Part shown: in pieces, positions 1-38,987 of the stretch
How positions within the stretch are numbered: position 1 is the stretch's first letter
How the letters are laid out: each line of letters begins with the position of its first letter
IMG/VR virus record: IMGVR_UViG_3300044714_000085
Span: 1 to 39,153 of that record
DNA length: 39,153 nucleotides
Source of the DNA: a virus
Reading direction: 5' to 3' (one strand)
Translations under genes and position numbers: made by a program
Notes under the pieces: model-generated
The model's input: the letters and a program-made list of their open reading frames with translations, nothing else
The model's database searches: none
Told to the model about the DNA's origin: nothing

Positions 1-285
1 GATCAGCTTGGACTTGCTCTCGGCCTCGCTCTCTTCGGGTGGTGCCGGGTGGGGATCGACCAGCCGCATCACGTTCGCCATAGGCTGCCCAGGCTGGCCG
101 TGGGCCGTGAAGCTCGCTATGATCTCGACGGCGGCAGGGCGCATCCCCTGACCGCCTTGCTTGCGGCCTGTGATGATTCCACCCTCCGCGATTGCCTGAA
201 TGCGGCCCCGCACGGTCATCCCGTTGGCCATTGTCATCACAACGAGGTCGCCTTGCTTCAGCTCGTTGCCCAGTTCGTCTCTCAT
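1..285 (-). CDS. Hypothetical phage protein, C-terminus beyond window edge
   Basis: An open frame starts at ATG 285-283 and runs leftward off the window, giving 95 residues without a stop. It begins MRDELGNELKQGDLVV and continues through a small beta-rich segment (VVMTMANGMTVRGRIQAI) that looks like an SH3-like barrel. The visible end is acidic and charged (EESEAESKSK). A purine-rich stretch with AGGGA and AGGA lies just upstream of the start. It is the most downstream gene seen in the leftward replication operon, 61 nt after the initiator. I do not recognise the family. The beta-barrel reading is inference from the hydrophobic pattern only. Confidence 0.6.
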   Translation of the reverse strand, partial: MRDELGNELKQGDLVVMTMANGMTVRGRIQAIAEGGIITGRKQGGQGMRPAAVEIIASFTAHGQPGQPMANVMRLVDPHPAPPEESEAESKSKLI

Positions 286-323
286 TCCTGTGTCCCTTCC
301 CCCGGATCGCCAGGGCGGTTGTC

Positions 324-347
324 ATGCTTGATGGATGCTCCAAGCAT
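324..347. repeat. Inverted repeat between initiator and downstream gene
   Basis: The heptamers ATGCTTG (324-330) and CAAGCAT (341-347) pair with a 10-nt loop. The structure sits right at the stop codon of the replication initiator and before the next leftward gene. No T-run follows on the minus strand, so it looks like an intercistronic hairpin for mRNA processing or stability rather than a terminator. Function is inferred. Confidence 0.4.
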
Positions 348-1477
348 CAAAATTGCCTAGGAGCTGCAAGGGGCTTCCCATATCTATCGATAGGGAATTC
401 CAGAAAACTGCTCAACTTTTCGATCCAAAGGCGCGGCCTGTCGGTCCACACTACGGCACCTTCTTGGGCAGACATGCTGCGATGCTTCAAGCATTCCTTG
501 AGCATCTCCAAAGTGAAGTCTGGAGTGGCTTTCAGAAAAGCATCTAGTTTCTTCGCTTCCGATCCGTCCCACGGACACCTTCCGGCCTGGGGATTAACAG
601 CTCCCCACCACGCCTCTATCTCGCTCCTGAAAGCAGCATGGCGAGTATCTACAAGCTTATCGGGTTTTGATGGATGCAACCCGTTTGTGACTCCATGAGC
701 AATCTTTTTCTTAGTGGTCATAGACGAATCGATAGGGATTAGAAGGCCCGTAGCCTCACCTGACTCTTCCGAACGCACTGGTGAGGCGTTTTTGGCTGTT
801 TCGCCTTTTGTTTTCTTTTGGATATCGGGCGCTGTTGGCCGGATGTTCGGGACCGGATCGCCGAAAGGGGGAGGGGGGATTAAATCCCCTTCGACCGAAC
901 GTAGTGAGGGAGAAGAAGAAATACCCGAAGGTGAAGGGGTTGGATTTTGGTTGGAGGTTTGGTTGGAGGTTTGGTTGGAGGTTTGGTTAAGCAAAATTGG
1001 CAAAACAGGCATGTCTTTGCTTTTTATTCGCTTATTTTGATGTTCATCTGGCTCTTGTGAGCCATTGCCGATTGCGGAGGTTGAATCAATGGTTATAGCT
1101 TTGGTTCGATTTTGCTTAAGCAAAAGTGGATTGCCGCCTTTTTTGCCTGCTTCGACTCTGATTTTGCGGATTTTCTCGTCCTTGACCATGCGCCTGGAGT
1201 AGATCGCGCCGGTTTCGGGATCGCGGCTGGCCACACCAAAATCGAGCAGCGTGGTTAGGGTTTTGCTGAAGGTTTGGTTATCCAAACCCAAAAGCCTAGC
1301 AATGGTCTCGTCTGACATGGCGCGACCGTTAAGTATAAGAACGCCACGGACTTCCGAGTCGTGCATGAAGTCCAGCATCTCGCGCCAAACACCTCTGTCG
1401 TGATAGCTGAGGGATTGCACACCGACATCCTTGCGCCAGTCCCCGGTGTACCACTGGAACGCCGGCATCTTTGCCAT
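347..1477 (-). CDS. Phage replication initiation protein (DUF1376/lambda O-like architecture)
   Basis: This is probably the initiator that binds the phage origin and recruits the helicase loader. Residues 8-110 (FQWYTGDWRKDVGVQSLSY onward) match the N-terminal pattern of phage replication proteins of the DUF1376/winged-helix type. Residues about 112-265 are a low-complexity linker rich in Asn, Gln, Pro and Ser that contains four NQTS-type units near 164-177. The C-terminal domain (about 275-370, with WWGAVNP and CPWDGSEAKKLDAFL) is the likely helicase-loader contact. The ATG follows the RHH stop by 2 nt, so the two genes are co-transcribed and likely coupled. The linker DNA carries the candidate origin repeats, as the lambda O gene carries its origin. 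A DnaC/IstB-type loader at 33584-34327 is the natural partner. The replication role is from family resemblance; the exact family is less certain. Confidence 0.75.
   Translation of the reverse strand: MAKMPAFQWYTGDWRKDVGVQSLSYHDRGVWREMLDFMHDSEVRGVLILNGRAMSDETIARLLGLDNQTFSKTLTTLLDFGVASRDPETGAIYSRRMVKDEKIRKIRVEAGKKGGNPLLLKQNRTKAITIDSTSAIGNGSQEPDEHQNKRIKSKDMPVLPILLNQTSNQTSNQTSNQNPTPSPSGISSSPSLRSVEGDLIPPPPFGDPVPNIRPTAPDIQKKTKGETAKNASPVRSEESGEATGLLIPIDSSMTTKKKIAHGVTNGLHPSKPDKLVDTRHAAFRSEIEAWWGAVNPQAGRCPWDGSEAKKLDAFLKATPDFTLEMLKECLKHRSMSAQEGAVVWTDRPRLWIEKLSSFLEFPIDRYGKPLAAPRQF
946..995. repeat. 12-bp iteron array inside the initiator gene (candidate origin)
   Basis: Three perfect tandem copies of TTTGGTTGGAGG lie at 946-957, 958-969 and 970-981. 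They are followed by a fourth half copy that merges into TTTGGTTAAGCAAAA (982-996). On the coding strand they give the NQTS repeats of the initiator linker. A T-rich stretch (about 787-830) lies about 120 bp away and could be the unwinding element. By analogy with lambda O this is a candidate replication origin. The repeats are seen; the origin role is inference. Confidence 0.6.
1110..1125. repeat. 16-bp perfect palindrome, copy 1 (initiator gene)
   Basis: TTTTGCTTAAGCAAAA is a perfect palindrome lying in the linker-coding part of the initiator, encoding LLKQN on the minus strand. The same 16 bp recur at 1499-1514 and imperfectly at 982-996 and 1577-1591. A related inverted repeat, GGTTTGG-4-CCAAACC, is at 1271-1288. 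It is a likely protein-binding site that belongs to the origin cluster. Confidence 0.6.
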
Positions 1478-1479
1478 GG

Positions 1480-1758
1480 CTACTCACCTACGGATGGATT
1501 TTGCTTAAGCAAAATTGAGGCATTGTTGGGAGGAGTGCTTGACGGAATGCTCGGAGCATTGCTCGGAGGATTGCCATTTTGGTTAAGCAAATCCAACCAA
1601 CCAGGCGTATCCAGGACCTTCTGAGCGACTTGCTGAGCTGCCTCGCGCACGAAGGTGTTGAAGGGAATCAGGCGATGATCTGCCGCGCGCTTTATCAACT
1701 CGATCTGTTCCCGGTCTCTAAAGCGGATGCTGATTTGTGGTTTTTTTGTGGTTGACAC
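1480..1758 (-). CDS. Ribbon-helix-helix DNA-binding protein
   Basis: This 92-residue protein is probably a small DNA-binding regulator or replication accessory. The N-terminal 50 residues (ISIRFRDREQIELIKRAADH, then LIPFNTFVREAAQQVAQKV) show the strand plus two helices of Arc/CopG/MobC-type RHH proteins. The C-terminal 40 residues are a Pro/Ser/Asn-rich tail whose DNA holds a 16-bp palindrome. The start is GTG at 1758-1756, because there is no in-frame ATG. The best leftward -10 ends only 8 nt before this GTG, so the message would be leaderless. It is followed 2 nt later by the initiator. A role binding the adjacent promoter or the palindromes is inference. Confidence 0.7.
   Translation of the reverse strand: MSTTKKPQISIRFRDREQIELIKRAADHRLIPFNTFVREAAQQVAQKVLDTPGWLDLLNQNGNPPSNAPSIPSSTPPNNASILLKQNPSVGE
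1499..1514. repeat. 16-bp perfect palindrome, copy 2 (RHH gene)
   Basis: This is an exact second copy of TTTTGCTTAAGCAAAA, lying in the 3' end of the RHH gene and again read as LLKQN. An imperfect copy, TTTTGGTTAAGCAAA, lies at 1577-1591. Repeating the same DNA in the same frame in two unrelated proteins points to selection on DNA. Confidence 0.6.
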
Positions 1759-1795
1759 GGAATCAATCTATACCTTAATGTAGATACAGTGTCAA
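1752..1795. promoter_or_regulatory. Divergent promoter/operator between replication genes and nuclease operon
   Basis: TTGACAC (1752-1758) and its inverted copy GTGTCAA (1789-1795) face each other. The leftward promoter is good: TTGACA (1795-1790), a 17-nt spacer and TATAGA (1772-1767). The rightward one is TTGACA (1752-1757) with only a weak -10 (TTAATG at 1775-1780). ATCTA/TAGAT half-sites lie inside (1766-1770 and 1781-1785). The symmetry suggests an operator where one bound regulator controls both directions. The RHH protein encoded next door is the obvious candidate, by inference. Confidence 0.6.
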
Positions 1796-1804
1796 GGGGG
1801 ATAT

Positions 1805-2305
1805 ATGACCGAGCGCCGGAGAATGAGCCAAAGCGCTGAAAGGGAGGCATGGACGAAATTTGTGGAAGGTGAAAAATCTTGCACCGACAAATCGGAGATG
1901 TCAAGTTACGGAAGTGCATTAACCTTCCAGCCAGTTCGCACTATGGCGCTGGGGCGGCTCAAGGTGGGCGAGCGCAACAAGACGGAAGCGGCCTATGAAG
2001 CCCATCTCAACCTACGCAAAATAATCGGCGAGGTCGCGTGGTTCGAGTTCGAGGGGATGACTTTTCGGCTCGCGGACAACACGCGATACACGCCTGACTT
2101 CAACGTCATGCTGACCAACGGAGTGCTCGAATGCCATGAGGTCAAAGGCACTACGAAGCGTGAAAAATCGAACGGTGAGATAGCTTACGATCCGTTCTTT
2201 CTCGACGACGCCAAAGTCAAGATCAAAGTGGCTGCGGCACAGTACCCAATCGTGTTCAAAATCGTTCACAAAGTCCAGGGGAACTGGGCTGAAAAGGAGG
2301 TTTGA
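1805..2305 (+). CDS. DUF1064-type PD-(D/E)XK endonuclease (Holliday-junction-resolvase-like)
   Basis: This probable DNA endonuclease would process branched or replicating phage DNA before packaging. The core from residue 57 (RNKTEAAYEAHLNL) through YTPDF (95-99) and ECHEVKG (109-115) matches the DUF1064/VRR-type phage nuclease pattern. Candidate catalytic residues are D98, E112 and K114. The segment DDAKVKIKVAAAQYP near 140-154 is also typical of the family. The first 45 residues are an unconserved-looking extension. MALGRL at residue 47 is an alternative start, but AGGGGG lies 4 nt before the chosen ATG. It is the first gene rightward of the divergent promoter. Confidence 0.8.
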   Translation: MTERRRMSQSAEREAWTKFVEGEKSCTDKSEMSSYGSALTFQPVRTMALGRLKVGERNKTEAAYEAHLNLRKIIGEVAWFEFEGMTFRLADNTRYTPDFNVMLTNGVLECHEVKGTTKREKSNGEIAYDPFFLDDAKVKIKVAAAQYPIVFKIVHKVQGNWAEKEV

Positions 2306-2306
2306 G

Positions 2307-2378
2307 ATGCACATTCTATTTGTAATCGTGGTGGTAGCTTTTTGGGCTGCCGCCATGCGACTGGAGAACAAACGATGA
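2307..2378 (+). CDS. 23-residue single-pass membrane peptide
   Basis: This tiny gene encodes MHILFVIVVVAFWAAAMRLE plus a short basic tail. It is a hydrophobic helix followed by Arg, Asn and Lys, so it should sit in the inner membrane with the C-terminus inside. An ideal AAGGAGG lies 6 nt before the ATG. The stop overlaps the next start (ATGA), so translation is coupled. The excellent SD supports it as a real gene. Function is unknown; small phage membrane peptides often act in exclusion or lysis control, but nothing here decides that. Confidence 0.6.
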   Translation: MHILFVIVVVAFWAAAMRLENKR

Positions 2379-2704
2379 CCGCTATTGATCCAAGAATTGA
2401 AGCTGGCCATCGGCTCGCTGAAGGTGGCCTGCGCTGTGTACTCGCAGATTGCGGAAATATTATCCCGGAAAAGCGGGTAATACGTAAAGCTGTCACATGC
2501 TGCGATGATCACGCTCGAATTCTAAAAAACATAAGGCGTGGCAGGCGGGAAATGACAAAATGCCGACTATGCGGCAGACCTTGCACTCCACGAGAGCGTG
2601 CTGACAACCTCGCATGGAGGCGCGAGCGCGAGGGCGAAAAGCGCGGGCGACCGAAGGCGAAGAAGGAAGAGACGGTTGGCGAGACAGGGGCGCAGCCGGA
2701 TTAA
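2375..2704 (+). CDS. Small zinc-cluster phage protein
   Basis: The 109-residue protein starts MTAIDPRIEAGHRLAEGG and contains two Cys clusters. One is CVLADC with TCCDDH (residues about 19-50) and the other is CRLCGRPC (about 65-72). These could hold one or two zinc ions. The C-terminus is strongly charged with Arg, Lys and Glu. The start was chosen because ATG 2375 overlaps the stop of the preceding peptide; an upstream in-frame ATG at 2342 would overlap that gene and lacks support. Zinc binding is inferred from Cys spacing. No specific function can be assigned. Confidence 0.65.
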   Translation: MTAIDPRIEAGHRLAEGGLRCVLADCGNIIPEKRVIRKAVTCCDDHARILKNIRRGRREMTKCRLCGRPCTPRERADNLAWRREREGEKRGRPKAKKEETVGETGAQPD

Positions 2705-2813
2705 CCACTTGCGCGTCAGAGGGATATGCGCGATGATTCCAAAAGTCATCACTCGCATCTCACGGTCCGATTGAGAGCGCGGGTACGCCCACGCACAAAT
2801 CGAAAGGAGCTTC

Positions 2814-3386
2814 ATGGCAAGCAACGCTAACAGCCGGGCATTGCCCGCGAACCCTGTCAGCGCAGCCGTCACGACTGCGCAAGTTTTCAACCTCGTTTCC
2901 AACTCCGCAGTCCCCGCAACGTGTGTGGCGCGCGGCAAAAGCATTCTTGAAGGCAAGACATTTCTTGTCCAAGCCCAGGGGAATGCAGTTACCGCTGGCA
3001 ACTACACACTGAAGGCTTCGCTGCTGGCGGCTCTGGTGATCCCAGGCATTCCGCTGACGGCCACCAACTGGACGCTGCTAGGATCGGGCACGGCGCGCGC
3101 GGTGAACACGGCATACACGCCGTGGAACATCCAGGCCGAGCTGCAATTCGACTCCAACGGCGGCATCATGCACGGCGTCTTCTCGCAGGAGGTCAACAAC
3201 CTCTTCGACGCATGGGCAGCTCTCACCAACACCCTCACCGGCATCAACGGCACCAACGCAGTGACCGCCCAGGGCGCTACTGTGCCGCCTGCCGATCCCT
3301 GCGTCTACTTCGCCGCCGCGCTCACCTTCGGCACCGCAAACGTGGCGAACATCGGAAACCTCATCAGCTTGGAGCTGGATTACTAA
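2814..3386 (+). CDS. Beta-rich virion-type protein (decoration/spike candidate)
   Basis: The 190-residue protein is rich in Ala, Thr, Asn and Gly and shows alternating hydrophobic strands with few charges, typical of virion decoration or spike proteins. Its pattern parallels the gene at 11273-11974. A VTTAQ opening is followed by GKTFLVQAQG (compare GRTLRLCGYG), a central TPWNIQAEL (compare MPFQFCFDL) and a C-terminal IGNLISLEL (compare LRQMTIEL). AAAGGAG precedes the ATG by 5 nt. It lies upstream of the terminase, away from the other structural genes. The structural role is inferred from composition and the similarity. Confidence 0.5.
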   Translation: MASNANSRALPANPVSAAVTTAQVFNLVSNSAVPATCVARGKSILEGKTFLVQAQGNAVTAGNYTLKASLLAALVIPGIPLTATNWTLLGSGTARAVNTAYTPWNIQAELQFDSNGGIMHGVFSQEVNNLFDAWAALTNTLTGINGTNAVTAQGATVPPADPCVYFAAALTFGTANVANIGNLISLELDY

Positions 3387-3485
3387 GCCGATCTAACAGC
3401 CCAGGCTGGCCGCAAAGTCGCGAGGGCATAGGGCAGACGATACCAGCGTGAAGCTGCCCCCCACTTCCAGAGCGAGGACACCACG

Positions 3486-3824
3486 ATGAAGGGACGCGAA
3501 AAAGAGATTCACCGGGCGTTGGACGGCCACGGTGAAAAGCGCGAGCACCACGAAGAGAAGAAAGAGCACACCCACTCCGTCAAGTACGAGCGCGCGGACA
3601 ATGGTGGCTTTCACGCCCACGTCGAGCGCAAGCACGAAGACGGGAGCACCCATCACGAGCATCACGTACTGATGTCAGCCGAAGACGCAGGCGACCACTT
3701 GCAAGAGCACATGGGCGACCATCCGGACGCTGGCGATATGCCCGAAGAGCAACCAGACCCCGAGCAGGGCAGCCCGCAGGCCGCGCAGCAGTCCGCCGCT
3801 GGTATGCCGCCCGCAGCGGGTTAG
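3486..3824 (+). CDS. Histidine- and glutamate-rich hydrophilic protein
   Basis: The 112-residue protein is very hydrophilic, with His runs such as HGEKREHHEEKKEHTHSV, HAHVERKHED and HHEHHV in the first 65 residues. An acidic Pro/Gln/Ala tail follows. There is no membrane segment or recognised fold. GAGGA lies 7 nt before the ATG. It is the last gene before a strong intrinsic terminator. The His content could bind divalent metal, by inference. It resembles small pre-terminase genes in some soil-phage genomes only in its position and composition. Confidence 0.55.
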   Translation: MKGREKEIHRALDGHGEKREHHEEKKEHTHSVKYERADNGGFHAHVERKHEDGSTHHEHHVLMSAEDAGDHLQEHMGDHPDAGDMPEEQPDPEQGSPQAAQQSAAGMPPAAG

Positions 3825-3856
3825 ACGTTCGAGTAGCCGGCCTCCCTACTCGACAC

Positions 3857-3911
3857 GCGAAGCGGGCGCTGATCCCCAGATCAAACGCGAACGCGCCCGC
3901 TTCGCCTTTTT
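3857..3911 (+). terminator. Strong intrinsic terminator before the packaging operon
   Basis: A perfect 13-bp stem is formed by 3857-3869 (GCGAAGCGGGCGC) and 3893-3905, followed by C and TTTTT (3907-3911). The loop itself can form a small TGATC/GATCA hairpin. It lies between two rightward genes, and the SD (TGGAGAAG) of the next gene begins right after the T-run. Transcription must therefore read through, or restart, for packaging genes to be expressed, which suggests late-gene control at this point. Confidence 0.8.
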
Positions 3912-3923
3912 GGAGAAGAGCAC

Positions 3924-4148
3924 ATGGCAAAGGAAAAAGCGAAGCGATACCCTTCGAAGCTCCACAAAGCCCTTACGCACCTGCGCAAGGGCGGTCTGCA
4001 TGATGCGCTGGGCATTCCCCGCGACCAGCCGATCCCCAAGGCCCGGCTGGTGAAGGCGATGCACTCGAAGGATGAGCACGTCATGCACATGGCTCACATG
4101 GCCCACATGATGGAAGGCTGGGACCACTCAGGCAAAGAGAGCAAATGA
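3924..4148 (+). CDS. Small basic, Met/His-rich protein upstream of terminase
   Basis: The 74-residue protein starts MAKEKAKRYPSKLHKALTHL and ends with a Met/His stretch (MHMAHMAHMME). Residues about 10-50 (LHKALTHLRKGGLHDALGIP, then LVKAMHSKDEHV) look like two or three amphipathic helices. Its place just before the large terminase, with a 4-nt overlap (ATGA), is where a small terminase subunit usually sits, but it is short for one and shows no clear HTH. GGAGAAG lies 6 nt before the start. I call it a hypothetical protein, possibly packaging-related. Confidence 0.6.
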   Translation: MAKEKAKRYPSKLHKALTHLRKGGLHDALGIPRDQPIPKARLVKAMHSKDEHVMHMAHMAHMMEGWDHSGKESK

Positions 4149-5803
4149 AGCCAGATTTCAAGCGCGCCGCCGAGAACGAGGCATACCGCAACGAGTTGCG
4201 GTGGCGCGCGCAAACCGAGCTGTTCTGGCTCGCCAAATTCGTGCTTGGCTACGTGAAGTTAACCGAGCAGGATCACAAAGAAGTCGCCGATAAATTCGTA
4301 AAGAAAGACCCCACCAAGCCTTTCGAGCAGCAGGACAAGAAAAAGAAGCGGCGCATCTTCCTGATGCCGCGAAAGACTTACAAAACCACCCTCAACATCG
4401 CCGACTCCGTGCAGTGGGTAGTGGGTTTTCCAGACATCGCAATCATGGCGATGACGGCCTCTAACTCACCGGACAGTCCCCTGGCCGATGCGTTTGTGGC
4501 CGAGATAGCCAGCCACTTCCTCACGACGAACGGCGAGCGCAGCAACCTCTGCATCCTCTTCCCCGAGCACGAAATCGTGAAGATGCCGAAGGACGGCCTG
4601 TTCACCACGCCAGCGCGGACCAAGTTCCGCCGCGACCCCACGGTGAAGGGCGTATCCATCGAGCAGAGCTTGTCCGGCTGGCACCCGGACATCATCAAGA
4701 GCGAGGACGTGCAGGACAACCGCAACAGCCAGACGGCCTTCGCACTACGCAAGGTGCGCACCAACTTCTATATCAATCTCAAGATGCTGGGCGAGGATGG
4801 GCACCTCGACATCACCGGCACCCGCTATGGCCCCGCGGACCTCTACGGCGACATGATCCAGAAGCAAGACGAGCGGACCATCCTGCTGTGGAAGCCCGCG
4901 TATGTGCGCAAGCCTCACGCGATGAAGCTGAAAGACGACGAGCTGACCGAAGACGATGTGATTCTCAACTTCCCGCGCCAGCTCAGTTGGGACTTCCTGC
5001 GCAGCGAGAAGGCTATCGACGAAAACAGCTTCTGGACGCAGTACATGAACATCGCCGAAGGCAACTTCAAGCCCACCTTCCCGCTCGAAAAACTCCACGC
5101 GGCGAAGATCCCCGAAGATGCCGTGCCGCTCCACGGAACCATTCACATCGCATGGAGGTTTCAGTATGCCGAGCAGAAGAACGATGCCGCTGCCGTTGGG
5201 GTTCAGGAGGCCGGAAGAATGGCCATCGTTGAAGTCTTGCGGGGGAGCTTTAGCCCGTCTGTTCTGGCGCGTGAAGTGGTGGCTTTGGCTAAGAAATGGC
5301 AGACGCACCGGACAGAGATCGAAGACACGCCGGGCGCGAGGCTCATGGAGCAGCACATCCAGAACGAGGCGCTGGAGCAGAACTGGCACATCGGCATCTC
5401 GTGGAGCGAGTTCTACCAAGAGGACACAGCCAGGCGCACCGCGATTAAGAGCGCCGAGCCACACCTACAGGCTGGACGGCTGCTATTTAGCGAGGGAATG
5501 GACAACTTCCAGCTCGTCTCGCTTCAGCTCTATCAGTTCGGTCTTATCGAAGAAACCGAGATCGCGTCCGTAGTCAGCCGCGTGGCGGCGCAGCTCCCTG
5601 TGTCGATTGCAGCCGAACACTTCGACCGCACCGACGAGGAAGCATGGGAGCGCGTGTTCCAGAACGATGCGTATTACCGCGTGTTCGGGAACGACGAGCC
5701 AGCGCCCAGCTACCAGCCGGAAGAGTACGCAGACAAAGAGAGCATCACCCCCAGCTACGCAGTGGCTGGGCTTGAAGACATCATGCCGGGGCTAACTGGA
5801 TGA
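4145..5803 (+). CDS. terL: Terminase large subunit
   Basis: This is the packaging motor ATPase and headful or site-specific nuclease that pumps DNA through the portal. It has 552 residues, a normal length. A deviant Walker A motif, MPRKTYKTT (74-82, invariant K80), follows the hydrophobic strand IFL. The Walker B-like segment is PDIIKSEDV (181-189), with the acidic pair supplying the catalytic carboxylate. A C-terminal RNase H-like nuclease half is suggested by alternating hydrophobic strands (AVGVQEAGRMAIVEVLRG, about 350-367) and the acidic EIEDTPGA near 395. It overlaps both neighbours by 4 nt. The assignment rests on motifs, length and position ahead of the portal. Confidence 0.85.
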   Translation: MKPDFKRAAENEAYRNELRWRAQTELFWLAKFVLGYVKLTEQDHKEVADKFVKKDPTKPFEQQDKKKKRRIFLMPRKTYKTTLNIADSVQWVVGFPDIAIMAMTASNSPDSPLADAFVAEIASHFLTTNGERSNLCILFPEHEIVKMPKDGLFTTPARTKFRRDPTVKGVSIEQSLSGWHPDIIKSEDVQDNRNSQTAFALRKVRTNFYINLKMLGEDGHLDITGTRYGPADLYGDMIQKQDERTILLWKPAYVRKPHAMKLKDDELTEDDVILNFPRQLSWDFLRSEKAIDENSFWTQYMNIAEGNFKPTFPLEKLHAAKIPEDAVPLHGTIHIAWRFQYAEQKNDAAAVGVQEAGRMAIVEVLRGSFSPSVLAREVVALAKKWQTHRTEIEDTPGARLMEQHIQNEALEQNWHIGISWSEFYQEDTARRTAIKSAEPHLQAGRLLFSEGMDNFQLVSLQLYQFGLIEETEIASVVSRVAAQLPVSIAAEHFDRTDEEAWERVFQNDAYYRVFGNDEPAPSYQPEEYADKESITPSYAVAGLEDIMPGLTG

Positions 5804-30350: not shown

Positions 30351-30379
30351 TTGACACGGAATTGTGCGCACGATACAGT
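30351..30379 (+). promoter_or_regulatory. Sigma-70-type promoter of the LRV-repeat gene
   Basis: TTGACA (30351-30356), a 17-nt spacer and TACAGT (30374-30379) make a good sigma-70 promoter 27 nt before the gene start. The first 12 bases (TTGACACGGAAT) are identical to the divergent promoter at 1752, and ATACAGTGT also recurs. A palindrome GTGCGCAC lies inside the spacer. These suggest control by the same phage regulator. Confidence 0.7.
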
Positions 30380-30405
30380 GTTGGGTAGTAGTTCGGAGCC
30401 ACCTT

Positions 30406-31257
30406 ATGAAAGATGAACCGATATGCGAATTCAGCCCGGCCTACGGCATGGGCTTGACCTCAATCCTCGCAGCCGAGCAGCAGGCGCAGATGGGCATCAC
30501 CAACGCGGCGCTCGACATCCTCACCGGCACGAAGACGAATTTTCTTGAAGAAATCATCGATGAAAAGGTGATTGAAGATTGCGAGATCAACAACGCCTGC
30601 CATGCAGGATTGAATTGGCTTAAAGCGACACCGCGAACCTATACCGCTCTGCGCGAAAAAAGTATTGACTGGTATCAATGGCTCGCTCGCCAGTCAACTC
30701 TTGCAGCGGTGCTGGAGAAGCTGGCGCTGGACTCGGATGCCGACGTTCGGATGTGCGTGGCGCAGAACGCCCAGGTGCCCGCAGCGGTGCTGGAGAAGCT
30801 GGCGCTGGACTCGGATGCCTACGTTCGGAGGGGAGTCGCGCAGAACGCCCAGGTGCCCGCAGCGGTGCTGGAGAAGCTGGCGCTGGACTCGGATGCCTAC
30901 GTTCGGAGGTTCGTCGCGCAGAACGCCCAGATGCCCGCAGCGGTGCTGGAGAAGCTGGCGCTGGACTCGGATGCCTCCGTTCGGATGTGCGTGGCGCAGA
31001 ACGCCCAGGTGCCCGCAGCGGTGCTGGAGAAGCTGGCGCTGGACTCGGATGCCTACGTTCGGAGGGGAGTCGCGCAGAACGCCCAGGTGCCCGCAGCGGT
31101 GCTGGAGAAGCTGGCGCTGGACTCGGATGCCGACGTTCGGAGGTTCGTCGCGCAGAACGCCCAGGTGCCCGCAGCGGTGCTGGAGAAGCTGGCGCTGGAC
31201 TCGGATGCCGACGTTCGGAGGAAAGCGAAAAAAGCGCTGAAGGCGCTCGGGCAGTAA
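30406..31257 (+). CDS. LRV-type repeat protein (seven 26-residue repeats)
   Basis: The 283-residue protein has a unique N-terminus (1-100, MKDEPICEFSPAYGMGLTSI onward). Seven tandem units of the form PAAVLEKLALDSDA-x-VR-xx-VAQNAQV follow and end in a basic cap (KAKKALKALGQ). The units match the leucine-rich-repeat-variant (LRV) consensus and should stack into a curved helical solenoid, a protein-binding surface. Only three positions per unit vary freely: Y, D or S before VR, and the two residues after it. The gene has its own promoter and is preceded by a terminator, the layout of a moron. It is possibly a host-interaction or anti-defence protein. No partner can be named. Confidence 0.7.
   Translation: MKDEPICEFSPAYGMGLTSILAAEQQAQMGITNAALDILTGTKTNFLEEIIDEKVIEDCEINNACHAGLNWLKATPRTYTALREKSIDWYQWLARQSTLAAVLEKLALDSDADVRMCVAQNAQVPAAVLEKLALDSDAYVRRGVAQNAQVPAAVLEKLALDSDAYVRRFVAQNAQMPAAVLEKLALDSDASVRMCVAQNAQVPAAVLEKLALDSDAYVRRGVAQNAQVPAAVLEKLALDSDADVRRFVAQNAQVPAAVLEKLALDSDADVRRKAKKALKALGQ
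30703..31248 (+). repeat. Seven tandem 78-bp direct repeats
   Basis: Units begin with GCAGCGGTGCTGGAG at 30703, 30781, 30859, 30937, 31015, 31093 and 31171, exactly 78 bp apart. They are nearly identical at DNA level. The variable codons run MC, RG, RF, MC, RG, RF, RK, so three units (234 bp) were duplicated as a block. Such identity implies recent amplification or ongoing gene conversion. Confidence 0.95.
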
Positions 31258-36797: not shown

Positions 36798-37214
36798 CTA
36801 TGACACGATCCGAGGCCAGGTCTGCTTGCCTCCGCTGTAGATGGCCAGCGAAAGGCGATAATCGCGCGCTTCGTCTGGGCAAGCCTTGCGTACCATCTGC
36901 TCCGCTTCGTCGCGTGTATCGGCCCCTACGCAGCCGGAGCGTATATCTGTGCGAGAGCTGCCGGAGCCAAAGTAAAAATCGAAGCCCCATTTTTGAGCGG
37001 TGGGCACAGCGCCAGCTTGCGGGAGCTGGAAACGTACCAGCCATGACGGGCCGAAGGTGTTGCGAACCTGCTGGAGCGAGGCGGAATCGCAATCGCTGGG
37101 ATAGTCGCCAGTTTCCCATGCGTGGCGCAGCTCTGACTTCCAGCGCCTGCCTTGAGCGGCTGCGAACTGTTGAAGGGCGGCGAACTGTTCGGTGGTGAGT
37201 GTCGATGTTTGCAT
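36798..37214 (-). CDS. Conserved phage protein of unknown function
   Basis: The chosen start is ATG 37214 (MQTSTLTTEQFAALQQFAAA), with GGAG 6 nt upstream. The motif FAALQQFAAAQGRRWKSELR, then HAWETGD and LQQVRNTFGPSWLVRFQL, is a pattern I associate with small phage proteins near replication genes. The C-terminus (GADTRDEAEQMVRKACPDEA) is helical and acidic. It lies next to the left copy of the 85-bp duplication, whose leader box precedes its start. Function unknown. Confidence 0.65.
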   Translation of the reverse strand: MQTSTLTTEQFAALQQFAAAQGRRWKSELRHAWETGDYPSDCDSASLQQVRNTFGPSWLVRFQLPQAGAVPTAQKWGFDFYFGSGSSRTDIRSGCVGADTRDEAEQMVRKACPDEARDYRLSLAIYSGGKQTWPRIVS

Positions 37215-37272
37215 TTCGGTCTCCATGCCTGCTACCAGCGCGGCAGGCGCGCGGTTGGTACAGCGCCTCATG

Positions 37273-37357
37273 GGTACGGGCGAACCCGCGTGGAACTGTT
37301 GCTCCCGGTGCAACAGCTATGCTATCAGCAGCTCTGTTTCCAGCTTCATCAGGGATT
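37273..37357. repeat. 85-bp direct repeat, left copy (3' end of clamp-loader gene plus leader)
   Basis: This 85-bp block matches 38237-38321 with only two mismatches. Read leftward it contains the last codons of the clamp-loader gene (after RE: SLMKLETELLIA and stop). An AGCTGTTGC/GCAACAG hairpin and the GCGGGTTCGCCCG leader box follow. Here the codons are not attached to the rest of the gene, so this copy is a duplicated fragment. Confidence 0.9.
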
Positions 37358-37479
37358 TACGTACTTGACTCCCGTTTCTTTGATTCCGCATCGCTTAGCC
37401 TCTCCAGGTAGAGTCGCGCTGTCTCTTCATCAGGGAACATCTGGAAGAGTTGGAAGGTGCTGATTGTCGATCTACTCAT
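37357..37479 (-). pseudogene. N-terminal fragment of IS1595-type transposase
   Basis: The 40-codon frame reads STISTFQLFQMFPDEETARL, then YLERL, matching the first 30 residues of IS1595-family transposases (FxxFPDEExARxYLExxLW, normally followed by CPxCG zinc ribbon and a DDE domain). It stops right where the zinc ribbon should begin: the last residues (SDAESKKRESST) are unrelated and run into the inverted repeat. AAAGGA lies 7 nt before the ATG, overlapping the end of the winged-helix gene, so a short peptide may still be made. The family call is from recalled pattern. Confidence 0.6.
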
Positions 37480-37482
37480 GAT

Positions 37483-37680
37483 TCAATCCTTTGGCCAATA
37501 AGTGATGAGGCGCTTGTAGTTGACATATTGCTTCTTTTGTTGGATAACGCCTTCCGTGGTGAGGCGTTTCAGACATCCAAATACAACCTCTTTTGCGATC
37601 CCGAGGCTTCGCTCTATCTCAGTGAGAGAGCATCCCGGATGAGCCAACAACCATTCGTACACAACGTCTCGCGTATTCAT
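37483..37680 (-). CDS. Winged-helix transcription regulator, small
   Basis: The 65-residue protein (MNTRDVVYEWLLAHPGCSLT onward) is a compact winged helix: helix 1 (VVYEWLLAHPG), helix 2 (TEIERSLGI) and recognition helix (KEVVFGCLKRLTTEG). A wing follows with VIQQKKQYVNYKRLITY. It resembles MarR/ArsR-like single-domain DNA-binding proteins. A 15-bp palindrome lies 35 nt before its start, a likely site for autoregulation. It sits inside the inverted-repeat cassette, so it may be cargo. Its target genes are not known. Confidence 0.65.
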   Translation of the reverse strand: MNTRDVVYEWLLAHPGCSLTEIERSLGIAKEVVFGCLKRLTTEGVIQQKKQYVNYKRLITYWPKD

Positions 37681-37714
37681 TTGGACGGGCTTTCTGGCGG
37701 GTTACGTACGGCCC

Positions 37715-37729
37715 GAGGTTACCAACCTC
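37715..37729. promoter_or_regulatory. Palindromic operator candidate upstream of winged-helix gene
   Basis: GAGGTT (37715-37720) and AACCTC (37724-37729) are inverted around ACC. The site is 35 nt before the winged-helix start, between it and the 113-residue gene. It could bind the winged-helix dimer or form a small hairpin in the mRNA. Confidence 0.4.
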
Positions 37730-37764
37730 ACGCTCCACTTGCCGTGGATGCGGCGCGGCGGAGG

Positions 37765-38106
37765 TTACGCGATCTCTTCAATTTCCAAACGGTAGTCGCC
37801 AATGGTGATTGCACCGTACTTGAAAAGCTCCTGCATGGCGCGGTCGCAAGCTGGGTCGCCGTCTTCTACATTTTCATCGCCGCTCTCGTACCACTCGGTC
37901 GCGCTCCAATCAACATCTGCTGTCATGTTCACCGCTGCTGCTATCGCGGTAGACAGGTCGGGGCGGCTCTGATAGTGGCTCTTGCCAACTGCGTTGGTGC
38001 AGCATTCTGCATACAGCTGAGCAACGAGAAACTTGTGCCCGTCGAGCTTCGCCTCTTCGATTGCTTCGTTGCGGAGGGACTTCATGCCTGATTCGTAAAA
38101 GCTCAT
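37765..38106 (-). CDS. Hypothetical 113-residue protein
   Basis: The protein starts MSFYESGMKSLRNEAIEEAK, with GGAG about 9 nt upstream. It has a Cys pair (LYAECCTNAVGK) and an acidic middle (ATEWYESGDENVEDGDPACD). A C-terminal helix-strand follows (RAMQELFKYGAITIGDYRLE). No family recognised. It lies inside the inverted-repeat cassette downstream of the clamp-loader gene and the right copy of the leader box. Confidence 0.6.
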   Translation of the reverse strand: MSFYESGMKSLRNEAIEEAKLDGHKFLVAQLYAECCTNAVGKSHYQSRPDLSTAIAAAVNMTADVDWSATEWYESGDENVEDGDPACDRAMQELFKYGAITIGDYRLEIEEIA

Positions 38107-38154
38107 TTTTGATCTCCATGAGGCTGGTTGCCTCTGATGTATTTAAGGCAGTTG

Positions 38155-38190
38155 ATTCCCTCACGTTTGCCAAGAAGAAAATGAGGGAAT
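38155..38190. promoter_or_regulatory. 9-bp inverted repeat in the 5' region of the 113-residue gene
   Basis: ATTCCCTCA (38155-38163) and TGAGGGAAT (38182-38190) are perfect inverted copies 18 nt apart. The site is 49 nt upstream of the leftward start at 38106. Its spacing suits an operator for a dimeric regulator or a stem-loop in the leader RNA. No clear sigma-70 promoter was found beside it. Confidence 0.45.
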
Positions 38191-38236
38191 TTTGTGGATA
38201 AGGGAGTCAAGTACGTAAATCCCCATCCTTTCGGGT

Positions 38237-38321
38237 GGTACGGGCGAACCCGCTTGGAGCTGTTGCTCCCGGTGCAACAGCTATGCTATCAGCAGCTCTG
38301 TTTCCAGCTTCATCAGGGATT
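38237..38321. repeat. 85-bp direct repeat, right copy (native clamp-loader 3' end)
   Basis: This copy is in its native context: it holds the last codons and stop of the clamp-loader gene (38281-38321). An AGCTGTTGC/GCAACAGCT hairpin (9-bp stem, loop ACCGGGA) and the GCGGGTTCGCCCGTACC leader box follow. The second copy at 37273-37357 carries the same three parts. Confidence 0.9.
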
Positions 38322-38943
38322 CGCGCACGTTGTTGTTGGACTCTTTCACCAGCCGGGCGAAGTTGGGCGCTGGGGCATCCGCAGGCGCTTCCGTCCGCCA
38401 GATGCGCTCCAGCAGCTCCGCAGCTTCCTTTGCGATGCCATAGCTGGAGAATTCGACCGTGCGCAGGCGTGAGAGAAAGCGCGGTTCCAAGCGGTCACTG
38501 GAGTTGCACGTAAAGATGAAGATGGTGTTGGGTGGGAAGTTTGTACTGTCCAACTTGGAGAGCAGCGCCACTTGCGCGGCATCGGTCATGCGGTCCGCTT
38601 CATCCACCAGCACCAGATGGAAGCCACCGCGCAAGGGTATGTACTGGCAGGTTTCGCGTACCTGTTCGATGTTGGCAAGGTTGCACTCCTGCGAGGGGAT
38701 GTGATGCAACTCCGCGTTCATCAGCTCTGTGAGCGCAAGGGCCATCGTTGTTTTACCCGTGCCAGACGGCCCGATGAACAACCACGCGGACTCAAAGGGC
38801 CGGGCGGCAAGGCGAGAGCAGATGCGTTTGGGTTTGTCCAGCCCCACGAAGGCGTCAATCGTGTGCGGCCTGTAGCGTTCGGTGAGAGCGGCGGGGAACG
38901 CGAAGCCGGACTGCTGGGTGGGAGCTGCAAAGAGAGTGGACAT
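38281..38943 (-). CDS. Clamp-loader-like AAA+ ATPase (RFC-small/gp44-type)
   Basis: This 220-residue AAA+ protein resembles sliding-clamp loader ATPases. TERYRPHTIDAFVGLD (21-36) is the RFC box-like start. Walker A is GPSGTGKT (58-65), Walker B is HLVLVDEAD (109-117), sensor 1 is FTCNSSDRLEP (144-154), and an SRC-like LSRLRTVEF follows. The start MSTLFAAPTQ at 38943 has AAAGG about 10 nt upstream; an in-frame ATG at 39018 would put the promoter inside the gene. The usual C-terminal collar domain is short or absent. No phage clamp or polymerase is seen here, so it may serve host or distant phage factors. It heads the leftward operon. Confidence 0.8.
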   Translation of the reverse strand: MSTLFAAPTQQSGFAFPAALTERYRPHTIDAFVGLDKPKRICSRLAARPFESAWLFIGPSGTGKTTMALALTELMNAELHHIPSQECNLANIEQVRETCQYIPLRGGFHLVLVDEADRMTDAAQVALLSKLDSTNFPPNTIFIFTCNSSDRLEPRFLSRLRTVEFSSYGIAKEAAELLERIWRTEAPADAPAPNFARLVKESNNNVRESLMKLETELLIA

Positions 38944-38948
38944 TGGAA

Positions 38949-38987
38949 TCACCTTTCGAGTGGTACGGGCGAACCCGCGTTGAACAT
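38949..38987 (-). other. Leader with UUCG hairpin and 12-codon uORF before the clamp-loader gene
   Basis: The leader contains GCGGGTTCGCCCGTACC, which folds into a CGGG-UUCG-CCCG hairpin, a very stable tetraloop type. A short frame, MFNAGSPVPLER and stop, spans it and ends 5 nt before the real start. The box recurs at 38237-38254 and 37273-37290, before other leftward genes. Translation of the uORF is not shown; no SD is obvious for it. Confidence 0.45.

Follow-up and report, generated by a model that had tools for sequence, protein, structure and literature searches.

The window analyzed in this study is the whole record (39,153 bp) of a soil phage virus contig. The initial annotation had described a block of small genes enclosed by inverted repeats, which in turn lie between direct repeats, and this nested architecture was confirmed. 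The inner repeats at positions 37352-37373 (plus strand) and 38202-38223 (minus strand) are identical across 22 bp (GGGATTTACGTACTTGACTCCC). The outer repeats at 37273-37357 and 38237-38321, both on the minus strand, agree at 83 of 85 positions, the mismatches residing at 37290 and 37295. Since mononucleotide shuffles of the window yielded almost no repeats, even at a length of 16 bp, a chance origin of these structures can be excluded. On the left, the inverted and the direct repeat have 6 bp in common (37352-37357), and the right direct repeat begins 13 bp beyond the right inverted repeat.

Each direct repeat is composed of the last codons of a clamp-loader gene, a hairpin (GCTGTTGC...GCAACAGC) and a leader with a further hairpin (GCGGGTTCGCCCGTACC). 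The right copy represents the original 3′-end and leader and belongs to the complete clamp-loader ORF (38281-38943, minus strand; PHROG 168, 2.5e-27), of which the left copy is a duplicate. Past the hairpin the two copies diverge, reading CATGAGGCG on the left and ACCCGAAAGGATG on the right. The hairpin leader GCGGGTTCGCCCGTACC was found at 37273-37289, at 38237-38253 and, as a third copy upstream of the clamp loader, at 38962-38978. Variants of it reside downstream of the clamp loader in the related phages L004, L007, L009 and L012. The remaining ORFs of the record look like ORFs of tailed phages, and neither RNA families nor tRNA genes were detected in the window. No DNA relatives of the locus were found among annotated phages, and a scan of viral contigs with the repeat core did not disclose a close relative. 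Elsewhere in the window (30364-31257), a protein consisting of near-identical tandem repeats (VLEKLALDSDADVRRxVAQNAQVPAA), which resemble leucine-rich-variant repeats, probably accounts for most of the exact repeats.

The DNA bounded by the inverted repeats comprises 872 bp (37352-38223). The suggestion that it is a cargo-bearing mobile element was borne out, as the 22-bp repeats are the terminal inverted repeats (TIRs) of IS1595-family elements, which reside on numerous virus contigs and are flanked there by target duplications of 8 bp. The exact 22-mer was present in 24 virus-contig stretches, while a search of 84,980 bacterial and archaeal genomes gave only two stretches, both from Acidobacteria. 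In many cases the 22-mer bounds an element, with the partner TIR located 0.3-1.8 kb away and the bases outside often forming an exact 8-bp target duplication. Full-length elements encode a transposase of 305 aa containing the IS1595 zinc ribbon (PF12760) and the DDE_Tnp_IS1595 domain (PF12762, 2e-45). In the intact elements L025 and L040, the E-value of the zinc ribbon is 1.5e-8 and that of the DDE domain 2e-45.

Comparison of the insert with full-length elements revealed four matching blocks. The first 52 bp are up to 98% identical to them, and the following approximately 80 bp correspond to the first 26 transposase codons. The third block, an internal leader (37684-37770, minus strand), is 95% identical over 87 bp to positions 2415-2501 of L035, next to the start of the transposase gene; in relatives, the counterpart of this leader adjoins the transposase gene directly upstream. 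The last 120 bp of the insert are about 82% identical to full-length elements; they include a right-end segment (38103-38201, minus strand) with a hairpin and the ribosome-binding-like leader of the second cargo gene, which matched the right end of L024/L030 with 82% over 122 bp. From codon 27 to past the stop codon the transposase gene is deleted, and the ends are joined over a 2-bp overlap (CT). The scar at 37402-37403 was located by two-sided comparison with L025, L024 and L033. As the gene is lost from codon 27 on, the ORF at 37357-37479 (minus strand) is a transposase remnant: its first 26 codons gave tblastn identities of 92-100% to the N-terminus of most intact relatives, and its last 15 codons, the fused tail, matched the left end of these elements. 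It is the only transposase match in the record, which contains one copy of the element. Partly deleted transposase genes were also seen in L031, L033 and L035.

Two cargo genes are located on the minus strand of the insert. The first (37483-37680) encodes a 65-aa winged-HTH protein, MarR-like (PHROG 1687, 9.5e-8), with a weak match to MarR_2 (6.3e-5) that is below the Pfam cut-off. The second (37765-38106) encodes an acidic protein of 113 aa with about 22 acidic and 9 basic residues, as counted by eye. For this orphan, no match was obtained in annotated phages or to Pfam and PHROG families, and its AlphaFold model (pLDDT 39) was unusable. Relatives of either protein were absent from the viral contigs. 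The cargo may have a regulatory or a counter-defence role, the latter being only a guess. The gene adjoining the cassette (36798-37226) has homologues with a QQVRNTFGPSWL motif that serve as IS1595 cargo in L025/L044, L090 and L111.

To place the insert, elements were gathered from fetched loci with a transposase pattern and two TIR patterns. This set includes 85 distinct elements that are bounded by TIRs and flanked by a perfect duplication of 8 bp, a number that depends on exact-match TIR and peptide patterns and does not represent a census. All reside on virus contigs except L040, which is on a bacterial contig. A full transposase gene was present in 68 elements, a partial one in three and none in 14. 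At least seven of the eight positions of the target duplication were A or T in 58 of the 85 elements. Genes in their neighborhood belong to portal, head protease, terminase, integrase, DnaB and primase families. Full elements possess a cargo slot upstream or downstream of the transposase gene, filled by very different small genes. Among 62 cargo ORFs from full elements scanned against Pfam, most gave no match; the matches obtained include C5 and N6/N4 DNA methyltransferases, Dam, Mom, PAPS reductase and ASCH.

The transposase-less elements usually consist of a TIR, 10-21 nt, one gene and the second TIR. Ten out of 14 carry a DNA-modification gene, seven of which belong to N6_N4_Mtase, two to MethyltransfD12 (nine methyltransferases in total) and one to the Mom family. 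A common backbone in front of the ATG (ACAGCGGAATCAGCGGGTT, with small changes) is followed by different modification genes, encoding N6/N4 methyltransferases, a D12 methyltransferase or Mom, in cassettes with target duplications at L169 1658-2462 and 11961-12588 (two on one contig), L200 690-1446, L191 2259-3327, L193 732-1800 and L217 9945-11102. Since transposase-less relatives have perfect target duplications, mobilization of such cassettes in trans by the transposase of a cognate IS is likely. There is a bias toward predicted counter-defence cargo among the phage-borne relatives; elements of this kind (mobile insertion cassettes, MIC, and transporter IS, tIS) are already known.

A phylogenetic tree placed 16 of 17 bacterial transposases outside the clade of the virus-contig sequences, the exception being L131. 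Furthermore, only one of 396 Acidobacteriota genomes revealed the TIR pattern together with a close transposase, the next-best transposase being 58% identical. These data suggest that the IS1595 group is enriched on phages but do not prove it, because the virus sequences in the tree were picked for their resemblance to the query, while all bacterial ones originated from one phylum.

Judged by sequence, the window copy belongs to this IS1595 group. It has the short perfect TIRs of its relatives but retains no more than codons 1-26 of their transposase. It lacks the 8-bp target duplication present in the 85 relatives, its flanks reading CTTCATCA on the left and CATCCTTT on the right. Because we explain the missing duplication by loss in a later recombination, we term the window copy a derivative rather than a full IS1595 member. 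It does fall under the definition of a MIC, as it contains passenger genes between TIRs without a functional transposase. A tIS carries its own transposase in addition to passenger genes, as observed in the relatives L025, L053 and L056 but not in the window copy, whose transposase gene is deleted. Thus, the nested locus is real and largely explained by a transposase-less IS1595-type cargo cassette and a separate duplication of its neighborhood. With a probability of roughly 85%, the element derives from a transporter IS of the IS1595 family, carries cargo and is not autonomous, and the outer repeats arose separately. Its mobility would require an IS1595 transposase in trans. The insert was missing from 11 related clamp-loader phages (L004-L014), as would be predicted for an insertion, none of them being close enough to provide the exact empty site. 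Joined-flank empty sites for target-duplicated elements were likewise absent among the loci examined. As a target duplication, an exact empty site and a close relative were not found for the window copy, we base its transposition on the resemblance to its family.

The 85-bp direct repeats do not belong to the element; they duplicate the 3′-end and leader of the clamp-loader gene. The sequence CATCCTTT (38224-38231, plus strand) adjoining the right TIR is presumably the surviving copy of the target site; it is located in an AAAGGAT leader resembling that of relatives, and the leader that holds the right flank is of the type (hairpin, AAAGG, start codon) that follows the clamp loader in L007 and L009. 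At the left junction, the element tip and the clamp-loader copy share the 6-bp sequence AATCCC, which would be met at a random site with a frequency of 1 in 4096. We slightly favor off-register recombination between two related phages as the best explanation for the outer repeats. The element, which has lost nearly all of its transposase gene by an internal deletion and retains the TIRs and two cargo genes, would have entered the leader that directly follows the clamp-loader gene. One parent would then have been a genome with the element after its clamp loader, the other a related genome without the element and with a different next gene. Recombination at AATCCC could have connected the left tip with the 3′-end of the clamp loader from the second genome. 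The same event would have produced the second copy of the 3′-end and leader and eliminated one side of the target duplication. It counts against this account that the copies differ at two positions and in the sequences downstream of them, so that two parental genomes or later changes are needed. We infer the order of these events; the TIR identity, the remnant, the scar, the cargo, the missing duplication and the microhomology can be read directly from the locus. Further points against the explanation are that a microhomology of 6 bp could be due to chance and that the second cargo gene lacks known relatives.

The initial annotation had also considered a recombination module built on conserved leaders. 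This idea is correct in part, and for the outer repeats only: they resemble a side effect of off-register recombination around the clamp loader and its leader rather than a designed module. Two further origins of the repeats were rejected. A target duplication of 85 bp generated by transposition does not agree with the 8 bp made by this family or with the right repeat lying 13 bp from the element, and a tandem duplication followed by insertion would have left an 8-bp duplication, which is absent.

The main rival to the off-register route, which we deem rather unlikely, is homologous recombination between two copies of the element from two phage genomes, whose insertion sites, the leader in one case and the clamp-loader 3′-end in the other, would be separated by about 100 bp. 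Such an event would account for the two different 8-bp flanks CATCCTTT and CTTCATCA, and according to the sequence an insertion at CTTCATCA would alter only the last eight residues of the clamp loader. Perfect direct repeats of 36 bp, in place of a duplication of 8 bp, abut both tips of a related element with a truncated transposase gene (L033 5351-6445), a structure which this model predicts. However, the model needs two insertions, each at a site with A or T at five of eight positions (only 11 of the 85 duplications are that AT-poor or poorer), and it leaves the AATCCC identity at the junction as a coincidence. Still less probable is an assembly chimera, in which either the repeated element or the 3′-end of the clamp loader led to the fusion of two strain variants. 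The locus is located near the end of a metagenome contig, and the differences between the repeat copies (2 of 85 positions) and in the sequences following them would fit such an artefact, but the element is complete with both ends and unique cargo and exists in a single copy. A site-specific inversion switch, considered initially and compatible with perfect inverted repeats that enclose a gene block, can practically be dismissed, because no ORF of the insert matched a recombinase and the putative crossover sites are transposon ends found with 8-bp duplications in many unrelated contexts.

Returning to the derivative of a transporter IS, we compared it with described elements. ISsaga covers transporter ISs and MICs and states that transposase-less elements can be activated by a cognate transposase (PMC3129680). 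IS1595-family tIS (Siguier et al. 2009, as cited in PMC3129680) are similar in the IS1595-family transposase of the relatives, the short TIRs, the 8-bp target duplication and the passengers beside the transposase gene. They differ in that the window copy is devoid of a transposase and that the present elements lie amid phage genes and carry small phage-type genes. MIC231 (De Palmenaer 2004), according to its citation in the same article, also has passengers between IS TIRs without a transposase and presumably depends on a related IS acting in trans for its movement. However, the elements described here have ends of the IS1595 rather than the IS231 type, reside on virus contigs and, in the relatives, commonly carry DNA-modification cargo, and the window copy retains a transposase remnant and has no target duplication. 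Elements of the tIS66 type, e.g. ISPa75 with fosZ (PMC12888890), are alike in combining an IS with a passenger gene of selectable benefit, but represent another IS family in a bacterial plasmid or chromosome setting. A description of IS1595 on phages or of methyltransferase-carrying ISs in phages was not found in the open-access literature.

IS elements are generally held to be poor tenants of compact phage genomes. The present data disclose a defined IS1595 group with perfect target duplications amid structural and replication genes of phages that carries small phage-type genes, and accessory genes seem to pass from phage to phage on jumping elements. In the transposase-less subset, reduced to one gene between two TIRs, DNA-modification genes predominate. 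If confirmed, phages would thereby possess a concrete and testable means of exchanging anti-restriction genes singly and independently of homologous recombination. Whether an IS1595 lineage living mainly on phage genomes serves as an exchangeable gene carrier is, in our estimation, evenly balanced. Such a carrier would consist of a TIR, a ribosome-binding site, one gene and the second TIR; genes for DNA modification and other counter-defence functions would be exchanged within a constant backbone, and many cassettes would be moved in trans. The two-gene cassette of the window would be one load, placed behind the clamp loader in a variable slot that holds ArdC-type genes in some relatives. The gene following the clamp loader varies among the related phages, and the slot is possibly a variable counter-defence slot. 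ArdC-type anti-restriction genes occupy it in L007 (765-1649), L011 (972-1853) and L012 (834-1673), other relatives having other genes in this place.

Some further features of the elements were noticed. Many of them possess, downstream of the transposase gene, a short basic ORF (MKTPPELDRIADKVLSYRPKPKTKAAKRRKRR...; e.g. L090 4424-4561) that is conserved and ends in the TIR; it possibly encodes an accessory transposition protein. The TIR consensus of the virus-contig elements (GGGAATTATATACTTGACTCCC) exhibits a TATAAT-like box directed outward and a TATACT box directed inward, so that hybrid promoters driving cargo or neighboring genes might arise upon insertion. In L061, an element at 1124-3284, which has a perfect 8-bp duplication, apparently lies within another one (227-4570).
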